A stretch of DNA of 64,000 bases from positions 2,542,001 through 2,606,000 of the forward strand of contig NZ_OY762974.1 of the NCBI RefSeq assembly GCF_963667135.1, in the 5' to 3' direction. The stretch comes from an uncultured Macellibacteroides sp. (GTDB lineage: Bacteria > Bacteroidota > Bacteroidia > Bacteroidales > Tannerellaceae). Under the pieces are notes generated by a model. It had not been told where the DNA came from. It worked only from the letters and a program-made list of their open reading frames with translations, and searched no databases. The position numbers and the translations under genes were made by a program. This document shows positions 2,888-18,980 of this stretch, piece after piece (positions within the stretch are counted from its first letter, which is position 1; the number at the start of each line of letters is the position of its first letter).

Positions 2888-4327
2888 TTATGACATCTTT
2901 AATGTGTCCAGTTTACCTTCGTTAACCAACTTGTAGATTAATTCGCCGAACAAGGTGTTAGCCCAGGCAAACCAGGAACGGGTAAAGTCTGACGGTTTAT
3001 CTTTATGAAAAGATTCGTGCATGAAACCCGTTTCGCCATCCGTATTACGAAGTGTCTGTACACAGTAACGAATCTCAGCTTCGTCTGTTGTGGTATTGGC
3101 TCTCATTATCAAACTCATTGGCCAGATGTAATCGAATCCGATATGGGGACCACCGATACCTTCGGCTGCTTTGCCTTTGAAGAAGTAGGGATTGGCATCA
3201 CTTAGAACCATCTTTCTGGTATTCTGGTAAATAGAATCTTTCATGTCCACACATCCCAGATAGGGTAGGGCAAGCAAGCTGGGAACATTGGCATCGTCCA
3301 TTAATACACGACTGCCAAATCCGTCTACTTCGAAGGCATACACTTTGCCAAAATTTGGGTGGTCTATGATTCCGTATTTCTTTACGGCCGCATCTACTTC
3401 GTTGGCAAGAGCTTCACATTTAGCTGCAAAAGAAGCGTTGTTCCGAACCTTTCTCAGAATCTCGGCCACTTGTCTTAATGACGTGATGGCAAAAAGATTG
3501 GAAGGGATAAGGAATCCAAACAAAGACGCATCGTCTGATGGGCGGAATGAAGAAACAATCAGTCCCACAGGTTTAACCGGACTGCCATAACCAAAGTTAA
3601 GCAACGTATCTCCCTGGCGGTCTGTTACGCGGGTAAACTTGTAAGGACCCTGGTTCTCTTTGCGTTGTTGTTCAACAAAGGTTTTATATACCTGTTCCAT
3701 GGCAGCTTCCCATGATGCGTCGAATACGGATGTATCTTTAGTTGTTGTCCAGTAATTGTAGGCAAGACGAATCGGATAACAAAGAGAATCAATTTCCCAT
3801 TTCCGTTCGTGCAGTTCCTTTTTCATGGTGGTGTTATCGCTTTCCCATTCGCTTCCTGTCGGACCTTCATTGAATCCGTTGGCATAGGGATCAATCAGGA
3901 TACAGTTAGTCTGACGGTTTATAACACCTGCAAGCATAGTTTGAATTGCTTTATCTTTCTTTGCAAAAGAAACATAGGGAAATACCTGAGCCGATGAATC
4001 ACGAAGCCACATTGCGTGAATGTCGCCGGTAATTACAAAAGTGTCCGGTTTACCGTTTATCATTTTATGCTGGCATGTTGTGTCCAATGTGTTCGGAAAA
4101 CAATTCTCGAACATCCAGGCCAATTTTGGATCCTTTATTTTCTTTTTGGTAGCAGCGATGGCTTCTTCTACCGCATTGGATGTAAAGTTACGTGCACCTG
4201 GTAATGGACGCTTACATACATAAGGTGATACCTCCGGCATACCCGAAGCTGCAAAAGAATTTTGTCCGACTAACAATCCGGCTACAGAAAAGGCTCCGGC
4301 TTTAATGAAATTTCGTCTAGAAGTCAT
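2888..4327 (-). CDS. GH125 exo-alpha-1,6-mannosidase with a twin-arginine signal
   Basis: GH125 enzymes are inverting exo-alpha-1,6-mannosidases that trim mannan or N-glycan oligosaccharides. The 479-residue sequence shows family motifs: MWLRDSSAQ (106-114), WEIDSLCYP (177-185, Asp180 as likely acid) and HESFHKD (437-443, Glu438 as likely base). The N terminus reads SRRNFIK at residues 3-9, followed by a mildly hydrophobic stretch. This matches the Tat consensus S-R-R-x-F-L-K closely and differs from the Sec lipoprotein signals of the neighbouring GH76 enzymes. I infer folded export to the periplasm, where it would shorten alpha-1,6-linked fragments made by GH76 at the surface. It follows the first GH76 gene by 49 bp in the PUL. 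Confidence 0.9.
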
Positions 4328-4376
4328 GAGATATTATATTTAAGTATTAATAGCAATCGTTATTGATGCAAAATTA

Positions 4377-5573
4377 CTAATTTGTTTTAGGAAGTCCGCT
4401 CATTTCTGAGAAGAGTTCTAACATGCAAGCATTATCCAACAGCCACTTGTGCTTTTTGTTCTTTAATCCCGACCAGTCGTCGCCAAGCAGTCCGTTTTCG
4501 TCGCGTGTATTTTTCCATGCATAGCGAGCATTGTCAGCCATTGTATTTACATAGAGTGCATTTCCGTCCACTTCATACAAGGCCTTAAGTCCGCGGAACA
4601 TAATCACGTTGAACCAGGGAGAACTTGTGTAAAAACGGATAGCTTTCCCATTTGGTAGATTTCGCATGGAAGTGAAATGATCGAAAGACCCTTTAGCGGT
4701 ACGTTGTGCATCAGTTAGATACGACTCGTCGCCGGTTTCTTTATAAAGGAGAACTCCTGCCTGAATCATTTGTCCGCTGTTGTATGTATATTTTTGCGTG
4801 GCAATTTTTCCATTTAACGCAATATTATCCCAGTAAACATAGTCAGTCGTATCACAAAGATTTTCTTTCGTCCATGCGTATGTTTTTTTTGCCCATTCAA
4901 GATATTCAGGTTTTTTAGTAAGTTCGTACAACTTCATACACAGAACAGTAGCCGGAGCGTTGGAACAGGTGTTTTTAGAAACGCGCTGTTGTTCGCACCA
5001 AAATATTCCACCACCCAGTTCTTCGGACCAACCGCTGTAGATATATGCATGCAATGCTTCCGCTTTTTCAAGGTATTTGGGTTCTTTAGTAAGTGCGTAG
5101 TAATCGCAGAAATCAATGGCAAGCCAGTCGTTGTCGTCGTAGAAACGATCGCTTTTTCCGTTAAACATAGGATAAGATTGATAACAAAATGGTTCACGGA
5201 TATTATCCCAGTAAAGTTCGAGACCCGGTAGAATCTGTTTTTCAAGAATATCCCTGTACTTTGCATCACCTGTTGTTTTATATAAAGACACACATCCTGA
5301 AAGCATTCCAGAGTAAGGCCAAAGAAAAGAAACTTCCTGTCCTTTTTTCTGCTCGCTTCCTTCTGCCAGATAAGTTACCTGTGTTTCGGGATTAATGGGA
5401 TAAGTTTCAGATAAAAGATCATACTTTTCTACATGGTAAAGTGAAAGAACATTGGTAAGCAAAGAATCTGCCATGGCAAGATCTGTTACTTCTTTTTGAT
5501 TGTTTCGGTTCTCGCAGCTAACCGACAAAAATGGAATCGCTGCAAAAGCAAAACAAAAGGACTTTAATTTCAT
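4377..5573 (-). CDS. GH76 endo-alpha-1,6-mannanase, lipoprotein
   Basis: GH76 enzymes are retaining endo-alpha-1,6-mannanases that cut the backbone of fungal mannan. The catalytic Asp pair is present in [12 protein letters not shown] (Asp146/Asp147 from the chosen start). The start at 5573 ([10 protein letters not shown]) gives a clean lipoprotein signal ending in LSVSC; a start 12 codons upstream would overlap the preceding gene and place charged residues before the signal. A Cys anchor followed by ENRNN suggests an outer-membrane lipoprotein, probably surface exposed. It lies 28 bp after a second GH76 gene. The two are clearly different paralogues in length and in the residues around the Asp pair. 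Confidence 0.88.
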
Positions 5574-5601
5574 TTTTCTCTTAATAAAAGGGTGTATATT
5601 A

Positions 5602-6735
5602 TTATTCAATTACAGACTTCTCCTTCAACAAAGCCATTGCTTCCATGAGCATGCAACCGCTGAGTTGTTCGGTTAATCCGGTTTCAGCAGAAGGTTTGGT
5701 TTTCCAGTATGATCCAAACAATACGGACTGTTTATAGGTTCCTTCGTTCCAAAGGGTGGTTGCATTATGTTCCATAAACCTTACATAGCGTGTACGAGTA
5801 CCAGCTTCAAGTTCAGGACAAAGAATTAACTGAGTGAAGTAGCGGACAAATATACCTTTGAATAATCCACCATCGCCGGTGCCTTCGCTTTGAAGGATAC
5901 GGTCGTTGCTGTTTACATTATTGTTTAATGCGTAATCGGCTGCTTTAATCGCATCGTTCAGGTATACCTTTTCGCCGGTAATGTTGTAAAGTTCCAACGC
6001 AGCGCCAATAAATGTTCCCTGATTATAGGTAAATTTCCAGTTGTCTTTTGCTCCGGCGTTTTCACGATTGATACCATCATATACAAAGCCGGTACCGGCT
6101 TCGTAGAGATGATCTTTCATCCATGAATATATTTTTTTAGCCCATTCCAGATCGCTTGTCCCGTTGAATTGTTTGTAAAGCCGGGCTGCCAGAATACATG
6201 CAGGAGCGTTAGCCGGAGTGTTTTTATAGTATAGCTGATCTTTTTTCCATGCTATTCCTCCGTCCATGGTAGAATTCCATCCGGTTTGAATATTTGCCCA
6301 TACATCAAGTGTGGCAGTTTTAAACTTATCATCTTTTGTTGAGTTATAAGCCCGAAGCATGGCAAGGGCGTTCCACTCCATATCATCATAAAAGTTATTG
6401 TAAAAGGTATTACCGTTCTTTATTTTTACCCCAATAAACCATTGGTTCATTTCATTTTTATACAATGAATTGCCGGTACGGTCGTAGGCATCTACCAGCA
6501 CGTCGAGTCCGTGTGCCTGAGGCCAGTAGTGAAAATCCGTATTGCCGCTGTTGCTGTAATTAAAGTAAGAACTTCCCGAATTCCAAAACCCGTTAGCCAG
6601 AGATTGGCTGCTGCTATCTGCTGCTGCTGTCCAATTAACCGGAGATTCTTCGGGGGTATCGATAGGTTCGTCATTTATTTTTCCGCAAGAGGAGAGGAGT
6701 AGAATTGAAAAAGAAAAGAGGAGTATGTTTTTCAT
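5602..6735 (-). CDS. GH76 endo-alpha-1,6-mannanase, lipoprotein (second paralogue)
   Basis: The 377-residue protein carries a lipoprotein signal (LLLSSC, Cys17) and a GH76 alpha/alpha barrel with the catalytic Asp pair at 117-118 in [14 protein letters not shown]. Other family signatures are [21 protein letters not shown] and [16 protein letters not shown]. Paired GH76 enzymes in known mannan PULs are often split between the cell surface and the periplasm. Both copies here have lipoprotein signals, so the division of labour cannot be read directly. It follows the SusE-like gene by 58 bp and is part of the same transcription unit. Confidence 0.9.
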
Positions 6736-6793
6736 CTGAATATTTTTTGAATATAATCCACCCGGATATAACTTCCGGGTGGATTATGGTTAA

Positions 6794-7930
6794 TTATTGG
6801 TTACCCACTTTTTTAATGACATGTGTATAGTTATTGTCTGCCTGAAATAGTACGCTAACATCGCTAAGGCTGTTATCAATTTCTTCCGCAAACTTAAAGC
6901 AGTTATTCCACTGGTCGCTAGACACTCCAACCATAAACCAGAATGATTCGGCTGTAGAATTATTAGGACGTGAATTGTCGCCGTTGGTACTTCCAAACCA
7001 TTCGAATTCGGTACCTTCTTTTACTGTCATACGGAATTTATAACGTTCGTCGCGTCCCCAACCTTCTTGTTTGAACGTAATAGGCTGACTTTCTGCTTTC
7101 CATACTCCCTGTCCAACATAAGGCAGTTCAAACAAGTAAGAATTGGTTGGAGCAAAGAATAGTTCCATCTTGCTGATTTCTGTATAAGCAACTGCTCCAG
7201 TTGTAAAGTCAAGATTGATACGGTAAACACCTGTTTTTTCAACAGTGCTTTCGCCGTTTTCTTTCAATGTCTCACCATCGGCATAGTATGTTGTAGCAGA
7301 TGCGTTTGTTCCGTTTGTAAAGTGATATTTCTTACCTGCAGTAAGCTTAGTATAGATTTCAAATTCTCCGCTGGCAACAGCTTTGAACTTAATAGCCTTC
7401 GAAAGATCGGCTCCGCCTTCAGATCCTTCACCAGTTACAAATACATCGGTTGGAACTTCGGCAAAACCAGCCAGACGAGTAATGGTCATGGTTCTAACTT
7501 CTTCCGCTTTTACTTCATTTACACCTTTTGATGATAAAACAGTCCATATAATGTTGCCTGTTTCAGAAGAATTCAATCCAGCCAAAGCACCGATTTTATT
7601 CAACGTTTTATGGGTAATGGTTGCGTAGTTGTATGTTCCATTATTGTCTGATGCTAATTTGTAGATAGGTTTTGAGAAATCTCCGCCAGCCACATCGAAA
7701 GCAACTTCGTACATAACCAACCCTCCGTCTTCCGCTTTGGCTTGTTCCCATTCGAACAATACATTAGCAGATGGAGAACTTTCCAGTTTTACCGATTTGT
7801 TATCGTCCGGAGAGTAAAGGGTTTTTACTGATGTAACATTAAGGTCCTCCATCGTATCATCGTTAGTACATGCTACAAATGCAACAAGAAAAGAAAGAAA
7901 TATAGTCGATTTTAATAATAAAGCTTTCAT
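6794..7930 (-). CDS. SusE/SusF-like outer-membrane glycan-binding lipoprotein
   Basis: The 378-residue protein has a lipoprotein signal with Cys21 in FVAC. An N-terminal Ig-like SusE domain contains the typical FEWEQAKAEDGGLVMYEVAFD region (about 58-78). Two further beta-sandwich modules follow (about 160-255 and 260-378), of the carbohydrate-binding type seen in SusE and SusF. Conserved aromatic residues in the last module (for example FEWFGSTNGDNSRPN) could form a sugar-binding face. Position directly after susD fits a surface glycan-binding protein. It has no catalytic motifs. Ligand specificity is inferred from the neighbouring GH76/GH125 genes only. Confidence 0.85.
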   Translation of the reverse strand: MKALLLKSTIFLSFLVAFVACTNDDTMEDLNVTSVKTLYSPDDNKSVKLESSPSANVLFEWEQAKAEDGGLVMYEVAFDVAGGDFSKPIYKLASDNNGTYNYATITHKTLNKIGALAGLNSSETGNIIWTVLSSKGVNEVKAEEVRTMTITRLAGFAEVPTDVFVTGEGSEGGADLSKAIKFKAVASGEFEIYTKLTAGKKYHFTNGTNASATTYYADGETLKENGESTVEKTGVYRINLDFTTGAVAYTEISKMELFFAPTNSYLFELPYVGQGVWKAESQPITFKQEGWGRDERYKFRMTVKEGTEFEWFGSTNGDNSRPNNSTAESFWFMVGVSSDQWNNCFKFAEEIDNSLSDVSVLFQADNNYTHVIKKVGNQ

Positions 7931-7998
7931 AATTTTGTCATTTTGAAAATTAACTGTTTCTTATTTATGCTATTACTTACAGAATAAATCTATAGGTA

Positions 7999-9630
7999 TT
8001 AATATCCCGGATTCTGTCCAAGATTCGGATTTAAGTCTTTCTGTGATAAAGGTACTGCCCACAAATAATCGCGTTCCGGATTAAATGTGCGTTTTTCTAA
8101 ACGAATATACCCGTTATCTATACTTGCTTCTCCAAACTGAGCTCCATGAGGATAGCCATTAAGAACATTTTCTGCTGTTTTCCAACGGCGGATATCAAAA
8201 ATACGCAACCCTTCCATAGCAAGTTCCACACGACGTTCGCGGCGGATAATGGTTTGCATGTTGCCTTCTGTGGGATAGATGAGCGAAGGAGCATCCGTAA
8301 ATCCGGCACGTTCGCGCAACGAACGAATGGTTTTGTTCCATACAGCTTCATCCATCTTACCTAACTCGTTCATCGCTTCTGCATACATCAGCAGTACATC
8401 GGCGTAACGGATAAGAATAAGGTTTAATCCTGATTTCATGCCGATTTCGGATGTCGGGTCGTAATTCTTGCGAAGATAATATCCCGTTGAAGTTGAATTT
8501 GATCCTGCACCAATGTATTCGTCTACATTACTATAGGTATTATCACTTGGTGTTGATCCCGGTTTGATGTAGATAGTCTGAATGGTTCCATCCGGTCTAA
8601 CCCATTTGGCACCGTGATACACAATAGTTGCGGCAAAACGAGGATCGCGGTTCTTGTAAGGATTACTTTCGTCGTAACCAGAGTTTGCTTCTTTGATCGC
8701 TTTTCCATTCATCATGATATAATCATCAACCAATTCTTGTGTTGGAGCCTTAGAATTAATACGAGCACCAACTGAAAGAGGTGCCAGATCATACATTTCT
8801 TCCCATACGCGAACCGAAGGCACATACTGATAATCCAGAATTACTTCACTGTTGTACTCGTTCTCTGGTTTAAAAATACCTTCGTAAGAAGAAAACAATG
8901 CGTAGGTTCCATTGGAGGTATTGCCGATTAATTTTTCGCAGGCAGCAACAACGTTCGCCCAATCGTTTTGGTATAGGTAAGCTCTTGCTTTTAAAGCAAT
9001 GGCTGCTCCTTTTGTGATACGACCGCGATCTGCTTCTGTATATTCTGTATTGGTAGGAAGCACCGCTTCAACCTCATCAAGTTCATTGTAAATAAACGTC
9101 AGAATAGCTGCTTTTGGAGTACGACTAATGCTTTTGGACTCCTCAAGAGTGATGTCCTTTTCAAAAAGAGGAACATCGCCATACCAGGTTGTTAACTGTA
9201 AATAAAGCCACGCACGGATAAAACGGGCTTCAGCCTTCATCCGGGTACGAAGCGTTTCGTTCATGTTCGGTACTTTATCTACATTCTCAAGGAATACGTT
9301 ACAGGTTTTAATACCTGCGTAAGAGTTTTTCCATTCTTCAGAAAAACGTGAGTTTGAAGCATCAGCTTGTCCGGAAGAGATCATCTTTTCGCTGCTGTTA
9401 CCACGTCCCTCGTACATGTTGTCCGACAAGGATTCGTTACTGAAATAACGTCCGCTGCTTGTTAACTGACCATAGGCTGTATTAAGCACCATAGATGCTT
9501 TTTCGGCAGATGTCCAGTAATTAGCTTCAGTAAATTTATCAGTCGGGGCCAGATCCAAATCCTGGCATCCTGATAAAGAAGCAAGGAAAACGACTGCGAC
9601 TGCGCTATATTTTAAGAAATTCAGTTTCAT
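7999..9630 (-). CDS. SusD/RagB-family nutrient-binding lipoprotein
   Basis: The 543-residue SusD homologue has a lipoprotein signal (ASLSGC, Cys22) and the N-terminal TPR-like region beginning LDLAPTDKFTEANYW. A C-terminal RagB/SusD module carries LILIRYADVLLMYAEAMNELG and RRERRVELAMEGLRIFDIRRW. SusD proteins form the lid of the SusC transporter and capture oligosaccharides at the surface. The gene lies 25 bp downstream of susC, the usual order. The substrate is inferred to be an alpha-mannan from the enzymes encoded next to it. Confidence 0.95.
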   Translation of the reverse strand: MKLNFLKYSAVAVVFLASLSGCQDLDLAPTDKFTEANYWTSAEKASMVLNTAYGQLTSSGRYFSNESLSDNMYEGRGNSSEKMISSGQADASNSRFSEEWKNSYAGIKTCNVFLENVDKVPNMNETLRTRMKAEARFIRAWLYLQLTTWYGDVPLFEKDITLEESKSISRTPKAAILTFIYNELDEVEAVLPTNTEYTEADRGRITKGAAIALKARAYLYQNDWANVVAACEKLIGNTSNGTYALFSSYEGIFKPENEYNSEVILDYQYVPSVRVWEEMYDLAPLSVGARINSKAPTQELVDDYIMMNGKAIKEANSGYDESNPYKNRDPRFAATIVYHGAKWVRPDGTIQTIYIKPGSTPSDNTYSNVDEYIGAGSNSTSTGYYLRKNYDPTSEIGMKSGLNLILIRYADVLLMYAEAMNELGKMDEAVWNKTIRSLRERAGFTDAPSLIYPTEGNMQTIIRRERRVELAMEGLRIFDIRRWKTAENVLNGYPHGAQFGEASIDNGYIRLEKRTFNPERDYLWAVPLSQKDLNPNLGQNPGY

Positions 9631-9655
9631 ATCTGTATCTTTTTAATAGTATAGG

Positions 9656-12600
9656 TTAAAATTCTATATCTAATCCAAAACCTACATAGATTGGAGTTGG
9701 GTAATTACGTCCGCTGTTTGCACCGTTGTTTCCCATATTCGATCCGAACTCTGTCGATTCAGGATCGATAAAACCGTTCTTTGTCAGCGTAAGCAGGTTC
9801 TGAGCGGTAACATATCCCCGAAGCTTTTGCATTCCAATCTTTTGAGAAAGAACCTTAGGCATAGTATATCCCAACTGAATGTTCTTTACGCGAAGATACG
9901 CTGCATTGAACAGATATAAATCGGACGATTTACCATAGTTGTTGGTATTGGAGGCTGTACCCGGAGCAGCCAGACGCGGCCAGCGGGCATCCGGATTAAC
10001 CGGGGTCCAGTAGTCAAGCTGATGTGTAAACATGGTGTACGAATAGTTTGAGTGAAATGGTTCAACCAATTCTCCCCGAAGGAACATCGAACGTTTTCCA
10101 ACACCCTGAAGCAATAAACTGAAATCAAAGTTTTTCCAGCTCATATCGTAGGTAATACCGTAAGTATAACGAGGAAATGCATTTCCCAGTACAAAACGGT
10201 CTTTGTCGTCAATTACTCCATTATTGTCGCGGTCAACATAGCGTACATCTCCCGGTTGAACAGTTGCTCCAACAGGAATAGCTCCGTTTTTAACTTCGTC
10301 CAGATTCTGGAAGTAACCATCTGTTTTGTATCCGTAGTACGAATTAAAAGGTAATCCGACGCGAATGATCCGTTGCATCTGATCAGAACTGCTGATTTGC
10401 TCGTTTCCGTCGAATGCAAGGACTTCATTCCATGAGTCAGCCAGGTTAAGACCGATATTGTGACGGAAATCACCTTTCTTGAAACGATAACCCAGCGAAA
10501 TTTCCCATCCCTGATTCAGCATTTCTCCAGCATTGTACTTAGGAACGGCTCCTCCGTATACAGTAGGAACTTCTGGTGTAATCAAGATGTCTGAAGTCCG
10601 TTTGTTAAAGTAATCTACCGATGCATACAAGGCATTATTGAAGAAGGTCGCATCCACACCCACATTGAATGTTTTGGAAAGTTCCCATTTCAATTCCTTA
10701 TTGGCAAACGTAAACCCGGTTCCGGCAACCGAAACATTGTTAAAGCCGTATGCATTGTTATTAATGTTATATGTAGTCTGATATTGATAATCGTCTACAT
10801 TCTGATTTCCAAGAATACCGTACGAACCACGTAGTTTCAATTCACCGAATTTTTCACGGTAATCTGTCATAAATGCTTCTTCAGAAACTCTCCATCCTCC
10901 AGATACAGAAGGGAAGAATCCCCAACGATTGTCTGAATTGAATTTGGAAGAACCATCGTAACGGAAACTAAATTCTCCATAATATTTACCGTTGTAAGAA
11001 TAACCTGCACGACCAAAAACAGAGTACAAGCTACGTTGGATAGTACCGTTAGGCGTATTATAGCTTGAAGTCAGAATTTCTGTTTCAGATACAGGAATTC
11101 CTAAATCTGGATCGGTAAACTTCTTTTTAATTTCGTTTGCCTTACGCGTATACGATTCGTTTGAAAAACCTAATAATCCGGTAATCTGATGCACTTTGCC
11201 AAATGTACGGTTGAAATCAAGCATCACCTGAGAGTTTAGGAAGAGCACCTTTTCGTTATAGTCTTCTGTTTCGCGGTTTGAATTTGCGTATCCACTTGGA
11301 ACAGTAGCCGTTTCGCTTGCATAGAAAGGCACTTGCTTACGCATGATCAGACGGTGATTGGAACGTAAGTCACCACCAAAAACACCCCTAAGCTTCAATC
11401 CGTCTATGATCGAGAAATCAGCATTTACAGATCCTGTAAAGTTATCTTCATCCTTCATCGTTTTACCACCAGCTTCGAGAATACCCAACGGGTTGAATTC
11501 CGATAGAACGTCGTTAACAAGGTAACGTCCGTTTGCATCCTTCATCGAATAAGTGTTATATACAGGAATACGGGATGCGTCAACAATAAGTGTTCCGGTC
11601 GAACTGGTGTGGTCTGTTCCGTCGGTACGGGCATAGGCCATGGAGGTTGTAAGTTTCAACCGTTGATATTCGGTTGTCGTATTTGACCTGAAATTGTATC
11701 TTTTAACACCGTAGTTCGATCCGGTAAAGTTACTCTCCTGATCGTAATAACCTCCAGAAATCATATAGGTAGAGTTCTTTGAACCACCAGAAATACTCAG
11801 GTTGTAGTTTTGTTGCAGCGCGTTCTTCATAATCTGGTTCAGGAACCACTCTGAATCGCCGTTTTCCTGAAAACTTTGAATCTGTGAAGGAGAATAGATC
11901 GGAGCCGATCCTCCGTTAACCAACGCTTGATTACGCAGAATAGCATTTTCATAACCCTGAACCGGTTTGTAAAGAACATGTGGATTTTGCGATCCCACCA
12001 TTCCGCTAAACTTTATCACTGGTTTTTCGTCTTTTTTACCTTTCTTGGTGGTAATCAAGATTACTCCGTTTGCCGAGCGTGAACCATAAATTGCCGCACT
12101 ACCTGCATCCTTCAATACAGAAATGTTCTCGATATCCGAAGGATTTAAGTTGTTCATGCTTGATTGTTCGACAACCAGACCGTCTATAACAACCAGCGGA
12201 TCATTATTATTCATGGTGCTGATACCACGGATGTTGATGTTTACGCTGTTGTCGTTTGGATTGAAACTTTTTTGCTGAATCACAAGGTTGGCCGAAGCAC
12301 CCTGAAGAGCCTGCGAAATATTTCCAACCGGACGGTCTTCAATTACGCCCGAAGAAATCTGGTCAACTGCACCCACAATACTCTTGCGTTGGGCTGTTCC
12401 GTAAGCAATAACAACTACTTCGTCGAGCGTTTTGGTATCTTCCTTAAGCACAACATTTAATGTGTTTTCTTTTTTTACGGGAACTTCCTGTGTGAGGTAA
12501 CCAATATAGGAAACCCGGATAATTGCCTTGGCGGGTACTCCTTGCAACGAATAGTTGCCATCTATATCGGTTATTGTTCCGTTAGTGCTGCCCTCAACCA

Positions 12601-13066
12601 TAACGTTGGCTCCAATTACAGGCTCTCCGTTTTCGTCCTTGACTACACCCGTAAGGGTTCGTCCGGATTCCTGGTTGGTTACTGTAATAGCCGCATCGTG
12701 CTTTGACAGTACGATGTGCTTGCCTTCCATTTCATAACTTACATTGGTATTAGAGAATATCTTGTTTAGAATTCCTGCAACCGACTCATTTGTAACGTTT
12801 AAAGAAGTCCTTCGTTCAACGTTTACATTCTTTTTGTTGTAGAGAAACAGATATTCTGTCTGATTCTCTATCTCATTTAATATTTCGCTAACCGCAACAT
12901 TTTGTTTGTTTAGCGTAACTTTTGCATTCTGTGATGAGGCATTTTCTGCCAGACCTGAACACACAAAGACGAATAATAGAAATACTGATAGTTTCATAAT
13001 CCGGACCAGATGGGTTAATTTATGATTTTTTAAGCCATAGGGATTTCGACAAAGAATATTTATCAT
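9656..13066 (-). CDS. SusC/RagA-family TonB-dependent receptor with STN signalling domain
   Basis: The protein is 1136 residues long, or about 1113 if translation starts at 12997 (MKLSVFLLF), the Met directly before the hydrophobic signal core. Domains in order: signal peptide; STN secretin/TonB N-terminal domain at about 50-120; carboxypeptidase-regulatory-like domain at about 137-212; TonB-box-like LDEVVVIAYG at 214-223; plug; and a 22-strand barrel ending in YVGFGLDIEF with terminal Phe. STN domains let the transporter contact a FecR-type anti-sigma, and fecR and the sigma gene lie just upstream. The protein would therefore import mannan oligosaccharides and report their arrival. A 158-bp leader separates it from fecR and holds a likely antisense RNA. 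Confidence 0.95.
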   Translation of the reverse strand: MINILCRNPYGLKNHKLTHLVRIMKLSVFLLFVFVCSGLAENASSQNAKVTLNKQNVAVSEILNEIENQTEYLFLYNKKNVNVERRTSLNVTNESVAGILNKIFSNTNVSYEMEGKHIVLSKHDAAITVTNQESGRTLTGVVKDENGEPVIGANVMVEGSTNGTITDIDGNYSLQGVPAKAIIRVSYIGYLTQEVPVKKENTLNVVLKEDTKTLDEVVVIAYGTAQRKSIVGAVDQISSGVIEDRPVGNISQALQGASANLVIQQKSFNPNDNSVNINIRGISTMNNNDPLVVIDGLVVEQSSMNNLNPSDIENISVLKDAGSAAIYGSRSANGVILITTKKGKKDEKPVIKFSGMVGSQNPHVLYKPVQGYENAILRNQALVNGGSAPIYSPSQIQSFQENGDSEWFLNQIMKNALQQNYNLSISGGSKNSTYMISGGYYDQESNFTGSNYGVKRYNFRSNTTTEYQRLKLTTSMAYARTDGTDHTSSTGTLIVDASRIPVYNTYSMKDANGRYLVNDVLSEFNPLGILEAGGKTMKDEDNFTGSVNADFSIIDGLKLRGVFGGDLRSNHRLIMRKQVPFYASETATVPSGYANSNRETEDYNEKVLFLNSQVMLDFNRTFGKVHQITGLLGFSNESYTRKANEIKKKFTDPDLGIPVSETEILTSSYNTPNGTIQRSLYSVFGRAGYSYNGKYYGEFSFRYDGSSKFNSDNRWGFFPSVSGGWRVSEEAFMTDYREKFGELKLRGSYGILGNQNVDDYQYQTTYNINNNAYGFNNVSVAGTGFTFANKELKWELSKTFNVGVDATFFNNALYASVDYFNKRTSDILITPEVPTVYGGAVPKYNAGEMLNQGWEISLGYRFKKGDFRHNIGLNLADSWNEVLAFDGNEQISSSDQMQRIIRVGLPFNSYYGYKTDGYFQNLDEVKNGAIPVGATVQPGDVRYVDRDNNGVIDDKDRFVLGNAFPRYTYGITYDMSWKNFDFSLLLQGVGKRSMFLRGELVEPFHSNYSYTMFTHQLDYWTPVNPDARWPRLAAPGTASNTNNYGKSSDLYLFNAAYLRVKNIQLGYTMPKVLSQKIGMQKLRGYVTAQNLLTLTKNGFIDPESTEFGSNMGNNGANSGRNYPTPIYVGFGLDIEF

Positions 13067-13073
13067 AACTTTG
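13044..13073 (+). promoter_or_regulatory. promoter-like motif for an RNA antisense to the susC leader
   Basis: On the + strand TAACTTTG (13066-13073) matches the Bacteroidetes -7 element TAnnTTTG. TTTC at 13044-13047 is one base off the -33 element TTTG, with 18 bases between. It points away from susC and into the fecR-susC gap, where a terminator follows about 85 bases on. Confidence 0.45.
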
Positions 13074-13079
13074 TAATGG

Positions 13080-13167
13080 ATTTATTGTTAATACTGAGAT
13101 TGATTTAGATTGTCTCGTGTTGACACATGCCGGAGGGTACACCACTACTTTCCGGCATTCCTTTTTT
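13080..13167 (+). ncRNA. candidate cis-antisense sRNA in the susC leader (DonS-like)
   Basis: The gap between fecR and susC holds, on the strand opposite to both genes, a hairpin pairing 13127-13134 with 13151-13158 (8 bp, extendable by a G-T pair). The T run TTTTTTATTTTTT starts at 13162. Read on the + strand this is a normal intrinsic terminator; on the - strand no T run follows, so it does not serve the PUL transcript. A promoter-like motif at 13044-13073 would give an RNA of about 85-90 nt complementary to the susC leader. Small antisense RNAs at exactly this place are known for PULs with ECF/anti-sigma control in Bacteroides (the DonS family), where they repress the locus. Ends are estimates. 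Confidence 0.55.
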
Positions 13168-13224
13168 ATTTTTTATGAATCATTTGCTAGCATGCGCTTT
13201 TAAATTAAATGGTTAACACTCTTA

Positions 13225-14151
13225 TTATTTTAATATAATTGTATTTGATTCATCGTCGCGGTTAAAAGAAAATTTCAGGTCTTTCTGAATTACTTTTAAC
13301 GCATATTCTATACCATCGTTGTGTCTGAATTTTCCTGTGCAACGGTAGGAGAGTAATCCCGGGTTTGCAATCTGTATATTTATATCATAATAGATGGAAA
13401 ACTTTTTCATGAGAGCACCCATCGGCTCGTCGTCGAAGCAGAGAAGTCCGTCTTTCCATCGAAATTCATCCAGATTTGATATTTTTCCTTTGTTCAAAAT
13501 ATTACTGGTGCCACTGGCAACTTCACCCGGTTGTAGTTTTAACTGATATTTATCAGACCTTACTAAAACAGATCCGTTTATAAGAGATGTTTCGAAATAA
13601 TCGGCATTGTCGTAAGCATATACATTAAAGGTTGTACCAAATACCTGAATATCATAGGTGTTGGTTTTGACTAAAAACGGATGTTCAGCATCTTTTTTTA
13701 CTTCAAAATAAGCTTCACCATTAAGTGTAACTTCCCGGTTTTTACCACTGAAAGTGGCAGGGTAGGTAAATGTAGTTTTAGAGTTTAGCCATACTTTTGT
13801 TCCGTCTGCAAGAACAAGTTGAACACGTTGTCCGGCAGGAACAATAACGGTTTGTTGTTGAAGTATTTTGTCTTCGGAACGATCCCAGACAGTCCATGAT
13901 ATTCCAAGGAGCAGGGCAATGGATGCGGCAACAGCAATAGTACGCCAAAAGTTGGTATGGAGTGAACGTATAGTTGTTGAAGCGGGTATGTTTTGAGGAT
14001 CACAATTCACGGTAACAGCATCCCAAAGCATTCTTTCTTTGAGATAGATTTTTCTGTTTGCCTCGGATTGTTCAACCCAGTTAACAATATGCACTTCTTC
14101 TTCCGAAGTGCTTTTACCGGCAAAATATCGATGTAAGGTCTCTTTGTCCAT
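13225..14151 (-). CDS. FecR-family anti-sigma factor
   Basis: The 308-residue inner-membrane protein has a cytoplasmic N terminus (about 1-70, with KSTSEEEVHIVNWVEQSEANR) that would hold the sigma factor. One membrane segment lies at about 71-90 (IAVAASIALLLGISW). A periplasmic FecR domain follows at about 105-205, with GQRVQLVLADGTKVWLNS and NGEAYFEVKKDAEHPF. The C-terminal DUF4974-type domain carries PMGALMKKFSIYYDINIQI. The FecR domain would bind the STN domain of the adjacent SusC. It lies 106 bp downstream of the sigma gene. The start ATG follows a 12-bp A/T-poor stretch with no competing Met nearby. Confidence 0.93.
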   Translation of the reverse strand: MDKETLHRYFAGKSTSEEEVHIVNWVEQSEANRKIYLKERMLWDAVTVNCDPQNIPASTTIRSLHTNFWRTIAVAASIALLLGISWTVWDRSEDKILQQQTVIVPAGQRVQLVLADGTKVWLNSKTTFTYPATFSGKNREVTLNGEAYFEVKKDAEHPFLVKTNTYDIQVFGTTFNVYAYDNADYFETSLINGSVLVRSDKYQLKLQPGEVASGTSNILNKGKISNLDEFRWKDGLLCFDDEPMGALMKKFSIYYDINIQIANPGLLSYRCTGKFRHNDGIEYALKVIQKDLKFSFNRDDESNTIILK

Positions 14152-14257
14152 TTGCTTTTATTCCTGATTAAAGACAACATTGATTGTGGTCTCTGCTTAT
14201 AATAACAAGACAAGAACTCACTACCCTAATGGATATTCAAAAAAATGTAATAATTTT

Positions 14258-14845
14258 TTAAAGTAAAAGTAAAAAGCAGGACGGCAGGTAATCTTTTAGG
14301 CTTGTTCGCAACACCTTTAAACCTTTTGTTATGTGAAATTCCACACTTTTAATACTTAGGTCCAGGTTTTCAGCGATTTCTTTGTTACTCAAGTTTTCAA
14401 ATCGACTCATAATGAAGATCTTACGTGTCTGATCGGGAAACATATCAATGGTTTCCTGAATAATTTTTTGTATTTCGGAAGTAAACAAATCGTTTGGATT
14501 ACAAGCTTCAAGGGTTGATATACGTAAATTAAGCTCGCGGCTTGCATGATCTGCCATTTTATCTTCTGCTTCCACGCGAACATTCATGTGCTGAAGATGA
14601 TTCAATGCCTTATTCTTTACAATCGTAAGTATATAGGCGGGTATATTGGTTCCCGGCAGAAGTTTTTTCCGCTTTTCCCAGTAGGCAAGCATGGCTTCCA
14701 TGCAGATGTCTTCTGCTACAGCCTTATTCCGGACATATGAATTTGCAAAAAGGATAAACCGTTCCTGATATTTATTGAATATCTCAGTAAAGGAAGTTAC
14801 CTCTGATGATATTCCCTGAATGGTGTTTTTTGTTTCTTTTTGCAT
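14258..14845 (-). CDS. ECF RNA polymerase sigma factor controlling the PUL
   Basis: The 195-residue protein contains a sigma-70 region 2 (FTEIFNKYQERFILFANSYV, then AEDICMEAMLAYW) and a region 4 helix-turn-helix (SNKEIAENLDLSIKSVEFHITKG). It is of the Bacteroides ECF type paired with FecR. I chose the ATG at 14845. An alternative start at 14905 falls in the -33 element of the promoter for this gene, so it cannot be translated from that promoter. Inference: when SusC loads substrate, FecR releases this sigma factor, which transcribes susC and the downstream genes. Confidence 0.93.
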   Translation of the reverse strand: MQKETKNTIQGISSEVTSFTEIFNKYQERFILFANSYVRNKAVAEDICMEAMLAYWEKRKKLLPGTNIPAYILTIVKNKALNHLQHMNVRVEAEDKMADHASRELNLRISTLEACNPNDLFTSEIQKIIQETIDMFPDQTRKIFIMSRFENLSNKEIAENLDLSIKSVEFHITKGLKVLRTSLKDYLPSCFLLLL

Positions 14846-14874
14846 TATTATCAAATCCTTGAGGATTGTTGGCG

Positions 14875-14905
14875 CAAATGTACAAATTCCTTTTTTTCCT
14901 TGCAA
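14875..14905 (-). promoter_or_regulatory. primary-sigma promoter of the ECF sigma gene
   Basis: On the - strand TTG (14905-14903) is followed by 20 bases and TACATTTG (14882-14875), a full match to the Bacteroidetes -33/-7 pattern. It lies about 30 bp upstream of the ATG at 14845 and fixes that start. Confidence 0.7.
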
Positions 14906-14931
14906 CGTATACTTTTACCACCACTTTCTTT

Positions 14932-16515
14932 TTAAAATCCATTCATGCGAATAAGTACTGTTGGCAAAAGCAGCAGAGCTCCCAGCAGAATAAGGAAAAT
15001 CATAAACTTCCACGACCAGCGGAACCATTTATCGTAAGGAATACGACTAACACCCAAAACGGCCATTAATACTCCGGAGGTTGGGGTTATCATATTTGTA
15101 AAACCATCACCAAATTGGAAAGCCATCACAGTGGCTTGTTTGGATAATCCGATTAAATCCGAGAATGGCGCCATGATCGGCATAGTCAGAGCAGCTTTGG
15201 CACTTCCCGAAGGGATAATCAAGTTAATAAGGTTTTGAATAACATACATCATTTCGACTGTAGCTATTTTGCCCATCCCATTCATCTCTTTTGCCATATT
15301 ATGAAGGATTGTATCAATTATCATTCCTTTCTGCAATATGACAATGATACCCCCGGCCATACCAACCACCAGCGCGGCACTCATAATATCTTTACATCCG
15401 GCAAGAAATAACTGAACAAGTTCATTCGGACCTTTATTGTTTGCTATTCCTGCGGCAAGTCCCATTCCCAGGAACAGCGTGGCTATCTCCATGATGTACC
15501 AGCCATATCCCATTACACCGGCAATCAGAAAAAAAATGGTAAAGAAAAGAATATTTAAGATGTAAAGATGCACGGTTTTCTTTAATGAAAAGTAGGACGT
15601 TAGAGCAAATAATGCAGTCAAAACCGGAATTACAGGCAATCCATTCAGTGTTGAGTTCCCTATCTGAAGTGAAGAAGTTGGATAGTTTACTGAAAACAGA
15701 ATAAGGATACATACCAGAACTCCGAAACTAACCCATGCAGCTTTTGGTGTATGGCGAACAATTTCCGGATCCTTGTTTTCGTGAAGATTTCTCCAGTATT
15801 GATCTTCTTCGTAGACCAGCGACAGTTTTGGGTTTTTCTTTACTTTCGCGGCATACCTCAAGATCCATGCAAATCCAGCGATATTTATGACTATCCAGCA
15901 GAAGATCCGGTATTCAATTCCCGAAAACAAGGGGATGCCAGCCAAACCCTGGGCAATACCAATTGTGAAAGGGTTGAGGATAGCCCCTGCAAAGCCAAGA
16001 GCGGCAGCAACAAATACCATACACACTCCCGTTATGGAGTCGTAACCCATGGATATTGCCATGGGAACAAGAATGATTGTAAAGGCTATGGTTTCCTCAC
16101 TCATCCCGAATACCGCTCCAAAAACGCTGAAGAGAAGCATGATCGAAACAACAATGAAATTGTCTACTCCAATCTTTCTGAGAAATTTATTGTTTTCCAG
16201 TCGTCTGGCCTTTCGTAAAAAAGCGATGGTTCCGATATCGAAAGCTTTACTGTCGTTCACTATCCAGAAAGCACCGCCAATAATAAGAATGAAGATAATT
16301 ATATCCGCTTTGTTTGTAAACCCTTCAAAAAATGCGGACATGACTTGCCATGTCTGAGGAATTCGATCAACAGATTCGTAAACCATAGTTTTTTGTCCGT
16401 TGTCCGATACCTGTTCAACATACTTTCCTCCCGGTACAAACCATGTCAGTATAGCACAAAACAATATAATGTAAAATATGATTACGAAGGTGTGGGGAAT
16501 TTGTCTTTTCTTCAT
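14932..16515 (-). CDS. YfcC-family integral membrane transporter
   Basis: From the start at 16515 (MKKRQIPHTFVII) the protein has 527 residues and about 12-13 hydrophobic segments. It belongs to the YfcC/C4-dicarboxylate anaerobic carrier group, whose members move amino acids or carboxylates. Supporting stretches are WFVPGGKY near the N terminus, MSEETIAFTIILVPMA, LGFAGAILNPFTIGIAQGLAG and the C-terminal FQFGDGFTNMITPTSGVLM, a hairpin typical of the ion-transporter superfamily. Longer upstream frames would overlap the preceding mutarotase-like gene and lack membrane character. It lies 34 bp after that gene, so a sugar-acid or carboxylate substrate is possible but not shown. Confidence 0.8.
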   Translation of the reverse strand: MKKRQIPHTFVIIFYIILFCAILTWFVPGGKYVEQVSDNGQKTMVYESVDRIPQTWQVMSAFFEGFTNKADIIIFILIIGGAFWIVNDSKAFDIGTIAFLRKARRLENNKFLRKIGVDNFIVVSIMLLFSVFGAVFGMSEETIAFTIILVPMAISMGYDSITGVCMVFVAAALGFAGAILNPFTIGIAQGLAGIPLFSGIEYRIFCWIVINIAGFAWILRYAAKVKKNPKLSLVYEEDQYWRNLHENKDPEIVRHTPKAAWVSFGVLVCILILFSVNYPTSSLQIGNSTLNGLPVIPVLTALFALTSYFSLKKTVHLYILNILFFTIFFLIAGVMGYGWYIMEIATLFLGMGLAAGIANNKGPNELVQLFLAGCKDIMSAALVVGMAGGIIVILQKGMIIDTILHNMAKEMNGMGKIATVEMMYVIQNLINLIIPSGSAKAALTMPIMAPFSDLIGLSKQATVMAFQFGDGFTNMITPTSGVLMAVLGVSRIPYDKWFRWSWKFMIFLILLGALLLLPTVLIRMNGF

Positions 16516-16549
16516 CTTTATTTTTATTGTACGAACTTTATATATCGAA

Positions 16550-16939
16550 TCAAGGCAATTGAAAGATCTGTTCCATGCGTTGCCACTTCTCGCTGGATGC
16601 TGCTCCGGCTTCACTCTGCTGAAACTTATCCACGAAAGCTTCCCACTCAGCTTGTTTTTCCATTTTAGCCAATCTGCCGAAGGCTTCGTCCCAATTAAAA
16701 TCAACAGGTGTTTCAACAATCATAAAAAGGCGGTTACCTAATAAATAGATTTCCATATTAAGAATGCCTGCTTCCCTTATGCCTTTCGGAATTTCCGGCC
16801 AGATATGTTCTTTACTGTGCCAGTAACTATAATTTTTTATTAATTCCGGATCATTTTTTAAATCCAGAGTCTGACAATATCTTTTTATCGCTCCGTTGTA
16901 AGCCGGGGAGATGTAGCCCCTATCATTGTTGGATTTCAT
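16550..16939 (-). CDS. L-rhamnose mutarotase-family protein
   Basis: The 129-residue protein matches the RhaM/DUF718 ferredoxin-like fold. YWHSKEHIWPEIPKGIREAGI carries the family's conserved His near the N-terminal third, and MEIYLLGNRLFMIVET forms the central strands. RhaM converts the alpha and beta anomers of L-rhamnose (related proteins act on L-fucose). It is some 25 residues longer than E. coli RhaM, mainly at the ends. No rhamnose isomerase, kinase or aldolase is present nearby. It sits between rmuC (23 bp upstream) and the YfcC-type transporter (34 bp downstream), so its sugar is uncertain. Confidence 0.8.
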   Translation of the reverse strand: MKSNNDRGYISPAYNGAIKRYCQTLDLKNDPELIKNYSYWHSKEHIWPEIPKGIREAGILNMEIYLLGNRLFMIVETPVDFNWDEAFGRLAKMEKQAEWEAFVDKFQQSEAGAASSEKWQRMEQIFQLP

Positions 16940-16962
16940 TTTTATTTTGCTTTTAAATTAAA

Positions 16963-18234
16963 TTATTGTAATTCCTCCTGTTCTTCTTCAGCAAGCAGTG
17001 ATCCTATTTCAGGTAATATGGCTCTGGCGTCACGATCGCTTAGTGTGTCCACATCTTTTAATTTACGTTGGATAGCTCTGGTACGTGTACCAAGTACTTC
17101 TTCAAGCTGACCGCTGGCAGTCTGGATATTTTTCTGTGCCTTTTCCAGCATACCTCCAACCTTTTCAAACTCTTTTTTTACAGCCCCCAGAATTGTCCAG
17201 ACTTCGCCCGAATGCTTCTGGATTGCCAACGTGCGGAATCCCATTTGCAAACTATTCAGAATGGCAGCAAGGGTAGTGGGGCCGGTAACAACCACTTTGT
17301 AAGTTCTTTGCAGCTCTTCAAGTAGCGAAGAACGGCGAACTACTTCAGCATAGATTCCTTCGAAGGGAAGGAACATAATTCCAAAATCGGTGGTAGCCGG
17401 AGGAGCAAGGTATTTTTCCGAAATATCTTTTGCCATTTTCCTGATGGTTGCTTCCAGCGCTTTTCCCGCAGCATCTATGGCTTGGGTATCGGCCGTATCG
17501 TAAGCATTGAGTAATTGTTCGTACACATCTTTGGGAAATTTAGCATCAATAGGCAAATAAACAAAATCACGCATATCGTCTTTGCCCGGCAGTTTAACGG
17601 CAAATTCTACCACCTCGGCAGATCCTTTTACCGTATGTACATTGGAATCGTACTGTTCGGGAGCCAATATTTGCTCGAGAAGCATGCTTAACTGGATTTC
17701 CCCGATATTTCCCCGAGTCTTTACATTACTAAGTACACGTTTTAAACCACCAACATCCTGCGCTAAGCTCTGCATTTCGCCCAATCCTTTTTGTACACTC
17801 TCCAATTGTTCGGAAACCAGTCTGAACGATTGACCCAATCGTTCGTTTAATGTTTTTTGAAGTTTCTCGTCGACCGTAACCCGTATATCTTCTAGTCGTT
17901 TTTCTGTGTTGGCAATCATTCGCTGCTGTTGTTCATCCAATTGGGAGAACTTCTCGCGCTGAAGTTGATTAAAAGATAAGATTCCCTTTTCGAATGTCTG
18001 GCGGAAATCATTCATGGAAACAGCCAGCTCTTCCCTAATATCTTTTGTCATCGACCGGCTTTCTTCCCTGTTGAGGCGAAAGTCTTCCCTGAAATTACGC
18101 TCTATCCTGTCGAACGAACGTTGCATTTCATTTAAGATGCGGTCGAAATCTTCTGTTTTGCTTTCTTTTCTTGTGCGAATTAAAACCAAAATAATAAGAA
18201 GAATTAAGAGTCCAATTAGTATAAAATTTATCAT
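16963..18234 (-). CDS. rmuC: DNA recombination protein RmuC homologue
   Basis: The 423-residue protein has one N-terminal membrane anchor (FILIGLLILLIILVLIRT), a long charged coiled coil (about 30-170) and the RmuC domain (about 170-390). The domain includes LKRVLSNVKTRGNIGEIQL, LPIDAKFPKDVYEQLL and MFLPFEGIYAEVVRRSSL. RmuC is thought to limit inversions and rearrangements at short inverted repeats; its nuclease-like core is PD-(D/E)XK-related. It is the first gene of a three-gene - strand run with the mutarotase and the transporter, although no functional link is obvious. Confidence 0.9.
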   Translation of the reverse strand: MINFILIGLLILLIILVLIRTRKESKTEDFDRILNEMQRSFDRIERNFREDFRLNREESRSMTKDIREELAVSMNDFRQTFEKGILSFNQLQREKFSQLDEQQQRMIANTEKRLEDIRVTVDEKLQKTLNERLGQSFRLVSEQLESVQKGLGEMQSLAQDVGGLKRVLSNVKTRGNIGEIQLSMLLEQILAPEQYDSNVHTVKGSAEVVEFAVKLPGKDDMRDFVYLPIDAKFPKDVYEQLLNAYDTADTQAIDAAGKALEATIRKMAKDISEKYLAPPATTDFGIMFLPFEGIYAEVVRRSSLLEELQRTYKVVVTGPTTLAAILNSLQMGFRTLAIQKHSGEVWTILGAVKKEFEKVGGMLEKAQKNIQTASGQLEEVLGTRTRAIQRKLKDVDTLSDRDARAILPEIGSLLAEEEQEELQ

Positions 18235-18396: not shown

Positions 18397-18897
18397 ATGG
18401 CAAATGTAACTTTAAAAGGTAATGAGATTCACACCAGTGGTTCTATGCCGGAAGTAGGATCCTTAGCTCCCGATTTTAAGGGAGTAAAAAGTGATCTTTC
18501 AGAATTATCACTTAGTGATTTAAAAGGAAAAAGAGTAGTTTTGAATGTTTTTCCAAGTCTGGATACTTCTGTTTGTGCTGCTTCGGTGAGAAGATTTAAT
18601 AAAGAGGCTGCCTCTTTAAACAACACAGTGGTTTTGGCAGTTTCAAAAGATTTACCTTTTGCGCATGGACGTTTCTGTACTACGGAAGGTATTGAAAATG
18701 TGGTTTCACTTTCAGCGTTTCGGTGTTCATGTTTTGAAGATAAGTACGGGATGCTTCTGATTGACGGTCCTCTTAATGGTTTACTAGCAAGAGGAGTTGT
18801 AGTAATTGACGAAGCGGGTAAGGTGGTTTATACGGAACTTGTTCCAGAAATAACAACCGAACCAAATTATGAAGCTGCATTGGCTTCATTAAATTAA
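18397..18897 (+). CDS. tpx: thiol peroxidase
   Basis: This 166-residue atypical 2-Cys peroxiredoxin reduces hydroperoxides with electrons from thioredoxin. The peroxidatic Cys60 lies in LDTSVCAASVRRFN and the resolving Cys94 in LPFAHGRFCTTEG, the same places as Cys61 and Cys95 of E. coli Tpx. The length matches the family. A promoter motif lies upstream and an intrinsic terminator follows at 18941-18980, so it is a single-gene unit. It would protect this anaerobe during exposure to oxygen. Confidence 0.95.
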   Translation: MANVTLKGNEIHTSGSMPEVGSLAPDFKGVKSDLSELSLSDLKGKRVVLNVFPSLDTSVCAASVRRFNKEAASLNNTVVLAVSKDLPFAHGRFCTTEGIENVVSLSAFRCSCFEDKYGMLLIDGPLNGLLARGVVVIDEAGKVVYTELVPEITTEPNYEAALASLN

Positions 18898-18940
18898 TTA
18901 GATTATTGTTTTTCATTGGTTAAAGTTAAGGGTTAGTGTT

Positions 18941-18980
18941 GAGAGTCGCCGGATGTGAGATCTCGCGGCTCTCTTTTTTT
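18941..18980 (+). terminator. tpx terminator
   Basis: GAGAGTCGC at 18941-18949 pairs with GCGGCTCTC at 18965-18973 (one wobble) and is followed by eight T residues. Confidence 0.8.

Follow-up and report, generated by a model that had tools for sequence, protein, structure and literature searches.

A predicted DonS-like antisense small RNA with a conserved two-hairpin fold opposite the susC start of an ECF-controlled PUL

The window, a 64-kb stretch of DNA, belongs to a genome of 4.46 Mb in one contig (G000, the source genome). It encodes a PUL whose genes follow one another on the minus strand in the order ECF sigma factor, FecR anti-sigma factor, susC, susD, a SusE-domain gene, and two GH76 genes with one GH125 gene (Table 1). 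A pairing of GH76 and GH125 is typical of alpha-mannan use. Because two GH76 genes and one GH125 gene are present, the earlier note's description of the locus as a probable alpha-mannan PUL is reasonable. The closest named record found for susC is the MAG Parabacteroides sp. Gw_SlPrim_bin_25, which is 100% identical over the best segment.

Table 1. Genes and predicted elements at the fecR-susC junction and in the surrounding PUL
Feature	Coordinates in the window	Strand	Basis
Remaining PUL: susD, SusE-domain gene, two GH76, GH125	2888..9630	-	annotation of window genes
susC, presumed target	9656..13066	-	ORF and domain annotation
Weak near -33 match (TTTC)	13044..13047	+	sequence reading; 18-nt spacer to -7 box
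susC start codon ATG	13064..13066	-	same N terminus read in sister genome (L014)
-7 box TAACTTTG of the putative antisense promoter, with bases common to the susC start codon	13066..13073	+	sequence reading, motif count
Predicted antisense small RNA, ~89 nt, ends estimated	13079..13167	+	model R1 match 13079-13165, 61.4 bits; fold
5' hairpin formed by TGTTAATAC (13086-13094) and GTGTTGACA (13117-13125), with GAGA/TCTC inside	13086..13125	+	fold; helix 1 covariation
Terminator hairpin, 13 pairs, 6-nt loop	13127..13158	+	fold; helix 2 covariation
U-rich terminator tail TCCTTTTTTA	13159..13174	+	sequence reading
FecR anti-sigma gene	13225..14151	-	annotation of window genes
ECF sigma factor gene	14258..14905	-	annotation of window genes

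On the strand opposite the PUL, the earlier note had placed a -7 match inside the fecR-susC gap, a near -33 match and, about 85 bases farther on, a hairpin with a T run that fits the plus strand only. The -7 box is present on the plus strand; it does not lie inside the gap, however, but covers the susC ATG at 13066. TTTC is found as the near -33 match, but its position is not kept: sense-strand CAAA with a start at +19 to +22 is counted 5 times across 74 loci. This poor conservation agrees with the available part of PMC7366714, according to which the -33 box was not found in Flavobacterium johnsoniae. The hairpin was found as described, with a six-T run that begins at 13162, 88 bases past the last position of the -7 box. 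Among the 12 terminator-like sites in the segment from 9000 to 17000, where shuffled sequences contain a mean of 6.5 such sites, this hairpin is the one with the largest number of pairs. The strand assignment also held: the plus strand of 13079-13168 folds with -33.1 kcal/mol (z -6.8; reached by none of 200 shuffles), against -19.0 kcal/mol for the minus strand (z -2.5; reached by 2 of 200), where no T run follows the stem. Searches with Rfam 15 give no match at the gathering cut-off across the 64-kb window, and the best sub-threshold match at this locus is VrrA, with an E value of 1.4 and 16.1 of 50 bits.

By itself, the motif TAnnTTTG occurs in the window at the chance level (78 copies versus 71.5 +/- 7.6 expected) and, like the unconserved -33 position, this counts against an antisense RNA. 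The feature exceeds chance because the same arrangement recurs at many FecR-SusC junctions, not because of the -7 box alone. FecR loci were collected from the source genome and its relatives, and 109 of the 112 examined were kept; one was dropped for lack of an open FecR frame (L087) and two for lack of a SusC in range (L088 and L091). Loci L095-L101 are left out of the junction counts, and L072 duplicates L055. On the susC strand the motif reads CAAAnnTATG, and in this form it is found at an in-frame susC start at 74 of the 109 junctions and before some ATG at 77, while none of the 34 SusC genes of the source genome that lack FecR has it at its start. Within the source genome, the comparison is 20 of 34 junctions versus 0 of 34 controls (Fisher p 3.4e-8).

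When both strands are scored for terminators by the same criterion (stronger than -8 kcal/mol), 82 of the 109 junction gaps contain an antisense terminator and 8 contain a sense terminator. The in-frame box occurs in 65 of the 82 loci with a scored antisense terminator, as opposed to 9 of the 27 without, and these 65 are drawn from the 74 loci with the in-frame box. A few terminators among these 82 seem to be false (e.g., L105), and several unscored loci (L056, L080, and L114) show a hairpin by eye. The 35 of 109 junctions at which the in-frame box is missing, and the 27 of 109 that lack a scored terminator, speak against the antisense RNA reading.

The identity of the folding strand is indicated by the non-Watson-Crick pairs in the stems. 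In 90 hairpins, whose stems were picked by Watson-Crick pairs alone and hence without regard to strand, the antisense reading gives 101 G-U versus 6 A-C pairs; 67 hairpins lean to G-U, 4 lean to A-C, and 19 are equal. Stems selected from antisense folds give 107 versus 11, and the cells of a 42-sequence alignment contain 82 G-U and 5 A-C in helix 1 and 59 G-U and 4 A-C in helix 2. Since A-C does not pair, the structure that has been kept is that of the antisense RNA; as judged from these counts, it is this RNA, rather than the sense strand, that folds. Over 65 loci, the 5' segment has a mean z of -2.8 relative to shuffles on the antisense strand versus -0.37 on the sense strand, and it is more stable than its own complement in 62 of the 65. 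These energy z-scores, together with covariation, were used in place of a search for 8-bp helices, which did not discriminate, as it found perfect helices in 59 of 65 loci and also in 32% of shuffles.

Covariation was assessed in alignment A2. Of the 65 loci, 47 lie outside the source genome, and removal of L089, L093, L094, L136, and L161 leaves the 42 aligned loci; none of them comes from the source genome, and its sister genome (G001) is included. The structure columns, here and in the model described below, were set by hand from the antisense reading. Two-sided changes are found in 17 of the 20 base pairs. Pairing cells amount to 94.0%; shuffles give 79.8%, and none of 500 attains the observed value, which falls to 34-49% when the partners are slid by 1 to 3 columns. 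Both conserved hairpins are present in the RNA predicted in the window. The GTATTAAC and GCTAACAC-like sequences, two stretches conserved between the terminator and the start codon, were also considered as a two-box ECF promoter; this was rejected because the distance between them is not constant (about 18 to 28 nt, by eye) and because, on the antisense strand, one stretch pairs with the other.

Model R1 is a covariance model of 84 positions that includes neither the -7 box nor any sequence from the source genome. Against the whole source genome (E up to 1) it yields at least 11 matches, a lower bound because 150 of 2905 candidates were scored; all of those 11 lie on the antisense strand of a FecR-SusC junction, and the window copy, with 61.4 bits, ranks third among the matches listed. 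Within its own family, matches at an E value of 0.01 occur in 82 of 123 genomes. The best matches of 20 of these 82 genomes, all outside the training set, were fetched; a SusC frame is found at 20 of 20 and FecR at 18 of 20, with the remaining two near contig ends, and 18 carry the exact box, one TAnnTTTA, and one neither. A second family (f20) has matches in 38 of 61 genomes, and its 29 fetched loci contain the exact box in 24 cases and TAnnTTTA in 5. Among 53 fetched loci taken together, 49 are flanked by FecR and SusC frames, 44 have the exact box, and 51 have either the exact box or TAnnTTTA; in this count L252 is misplaced by a contig edge, and its box is present. The model places the feature in two or more Bacteroidales families, and a match in a named relative is found in Parabacteroides faecis JCM 18682 (L004:4901-4988, minus strand, 64.7 bits). 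Two results argue against the antisense RNA identity: in an even draw across the order, searched with stricter filters, matches at an E value of 0.001 are found in only 5 of 149 genomes, and one match from outside both families (L215) lies away from any FecR-SusC junction. This last match (G181:C9:141278-141361) has CAAATATATG at its 5' end, where CAAAnnTATG is also found.

Antisense RNAs at this position are a known kind, those of the DonS type having been recognized in transcriptomes. In the available part of PMC7366714, the DonS family is described as cis-antisense RNAs of 78 to 128 nt that are divergent and opposite to susC homologs, with ten further members in B. theta, five of which were seen on northern blots. 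DonS is divergent to an N-glycan PUL and represses it by a mechanism that the accessible text of PMC11697453 calls unknown. PMC10994844 counts 32 asRNAs associated with PULs in B. theta, whose expression correlations are mixed and include positive pairs, and PMC9723704 reports such antisense RNAs at 15 PULs in B. fragilis. The RNA predicted here is encoded opposite and divergent to the susC homolog of a PUL that has an ECF sigma/anti-sigma pair, and its predicted length of ~89 nt, which is taken from the box and the terminator, lies inside the range of 78 to 128 nt. Like the DonS RNAs of B. fragilis and B. theta, it is located on the opposite strand at the susC start of an ECF/anti-sigma PUL, is of similar predicted size, and has a -7 box of the housekeeping sigma type; unlike them, it belongs to a mannan-type PUL of a Parabacteroides-like genome. 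This is a likeness of position, predicted size, promoter, and PUL type. A fragment of BT3781 of B. theta had no match in two sets of 25 and 6 genomes. GibS and FopS are also Bacteroides small RNAs tied to glycan use. They are set apart here by their available descriptions: GibS is intergenic with a trans target, and FopS has 9 intergenic members, 4 antisense members, and 1 derived from a 3' UTR.

Since the kind is known, the window RNA would be a further member by position, predicted size, and setting, and the locus is very probably a gene for a cis-encoded, DonS-like, PUL-associated antisense small RNA. The DonS-type reading proposed in the earlier note is therefore supported, as the position, predicted length, -7 box, intrinsic terminator, and ECF/FecR PUL all fit the class; to these, the conserved covarying structure is added. 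The arguments against this identity include the caution, in the part of PMC7366714 that is available, that random promoters may account for some of the antisense transcription, the positively correlated pairs in the partial text of PMC10994844, and the same start motif at the susE-like gene at 7930 in the window. The literature searched, which misses most subscription papers and supplements, contained neither the start-codon box nor the covarying two-hairpin structure.

On the sense side, GCCTATG is found after the FecR stop at 67 of 109 junctions and in the reverse orientation at 0 of 109, and it precedes 1 of 34 control SusC genes, for which a longer stretch was scanned. Its median distance to the ATG is 121 nt (48 loci), and the exact box is absent at the window locus. 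GCCTATG may be part of an ECF promoter, in which case the susC leader would span the whole antisense RNA. Long susC leaders agree with the available part of PMC11501099, which describes, for B. theta PUL24, a 5' end that is tied to an anti-sigma mutant and lies 291 nt upstream of susC. In its longer form, this conserved sense-strand box past the FecR stop reads TGCCTATGA, for example in L042, L056, and L107.

The position of the box, the terminator, the fold, its strand, and the conservation at multiple loci are read from the DNA itself; from them we infer transcription, repression, pairing, and reciprocal shut-off as follows. Housekeeping RNA polymerase would start on the plus strand near 13079 from the -7 box on the susC ATG and would stop at the intrinsic terminator near 13167, giving a product that folds into the 5' hairpin and the terminator hairpin. 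While the ECF sigma factor is inactive, this RNA would hold down susC and hence the mannan PUL. In this off state the folded RNA would pair with the complementary susC leader, whose mirror hairpins would be open because A-C mismatches weaken them, and antisense transcription may also hinder the sense promoter. In the on state, the released ECF sigma factor would drive sense transcription across the antisense promoter, shutting the antisense RNA off. Conservation of the 5' hairpin speaks for a role of the RNA product itself, and the weak mirror hairpins of the leader argue for an open target; we put the chances that RNA pairing is the main mechanism at about even.

A serious rival, although a less likely one, is transcriptional interference, in which transcription toward and across the susC leader and promoter is what acts and the RNA is a by-product. 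The antisense promoter indeed faces the susC leader from its seat on the start codon, and the candidate sense box GCCTATG lies upstream at the distance given above; if transcription alone mattered, however, neither the conserved, covarying 5' hairpin nor the G-U-rich stems would be needed. It is improbable that the hairpin is only a barrier that stops stray antisense transcripts from entering fecR and the sigma gene: a strong terminator is so oriented at the 82 junctions mentioned, but for a barrier, a promoter box at a constant position on the susC start and a 5' hairpin would both be unnecessary. Less probable still is a sense-strand leader element of susC, such as an attenuator or riboswitch. 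The same bases would fall in the susC leader, and the sense fold slightly exceeds shuffles (z -2.5 here; Stouffer -3.0 over 65 loci), but the sense stems contain A-C mismatches with no T run after them, and sense terminators are rare in the gaps. Equally remote is a chance promoter and hairpin without function, which would suit the chance frequency of TAnnTTTG in the window but not the conservation, covariation, and specificity of the arrangement.

Returning to the antisense RNA, we propose, with slightly less than even confidence, that it represents a Bacteroidales family of structured RNAs outside Rfam 15, located at FecR-SusC junctions. The CAAAnnTATG promoter box of this family would lie in the susC start, its G-U stems would keep the antisense RNA folded and the mRNA leader open, and together with the upstream ECF promoter it would form a reciprocal off/on switch common to many ECF-controlled PULs. 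If so, an RNA brake is part of many glycan-uptake systems, and the promoter of this brake places a constraint on the susC start codon. The structural model, with its compensatory changes, provides base-by-base predictions and indicates that such RNAs can be found from DNA alone.

Several other features were observed in these searches. An inverted repeat, ACAAAG/CTTTGT (13049-13054 and 13069-13074), flanks the susC start codon, and a complement of at least 6 bases 3' of the susC start is found in 20 of 74 loci, while two control stretches give 0 and 1 of 74; this repeat may be an mRNA hairpin or a protein site. The start of the SusE-domain gene (7930-7937, plus strand) also reads CAAAATTATG, which is TAATTTTG on the opposite strand. 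A weak R1 match in the window (18885-18978, plus strand; 25 bits, E 0.34) lies at the end of a plus-strand ORF (18397-18897) and is probably an ordinary terminator. Finally, one susC relative (G033:C2:1593185-1597965) is found as two overlapping matches, covering query positions 1-599 and 140-1136, and may be partly duplicated or disrupted; its upstream region retains the antisense element (L260).
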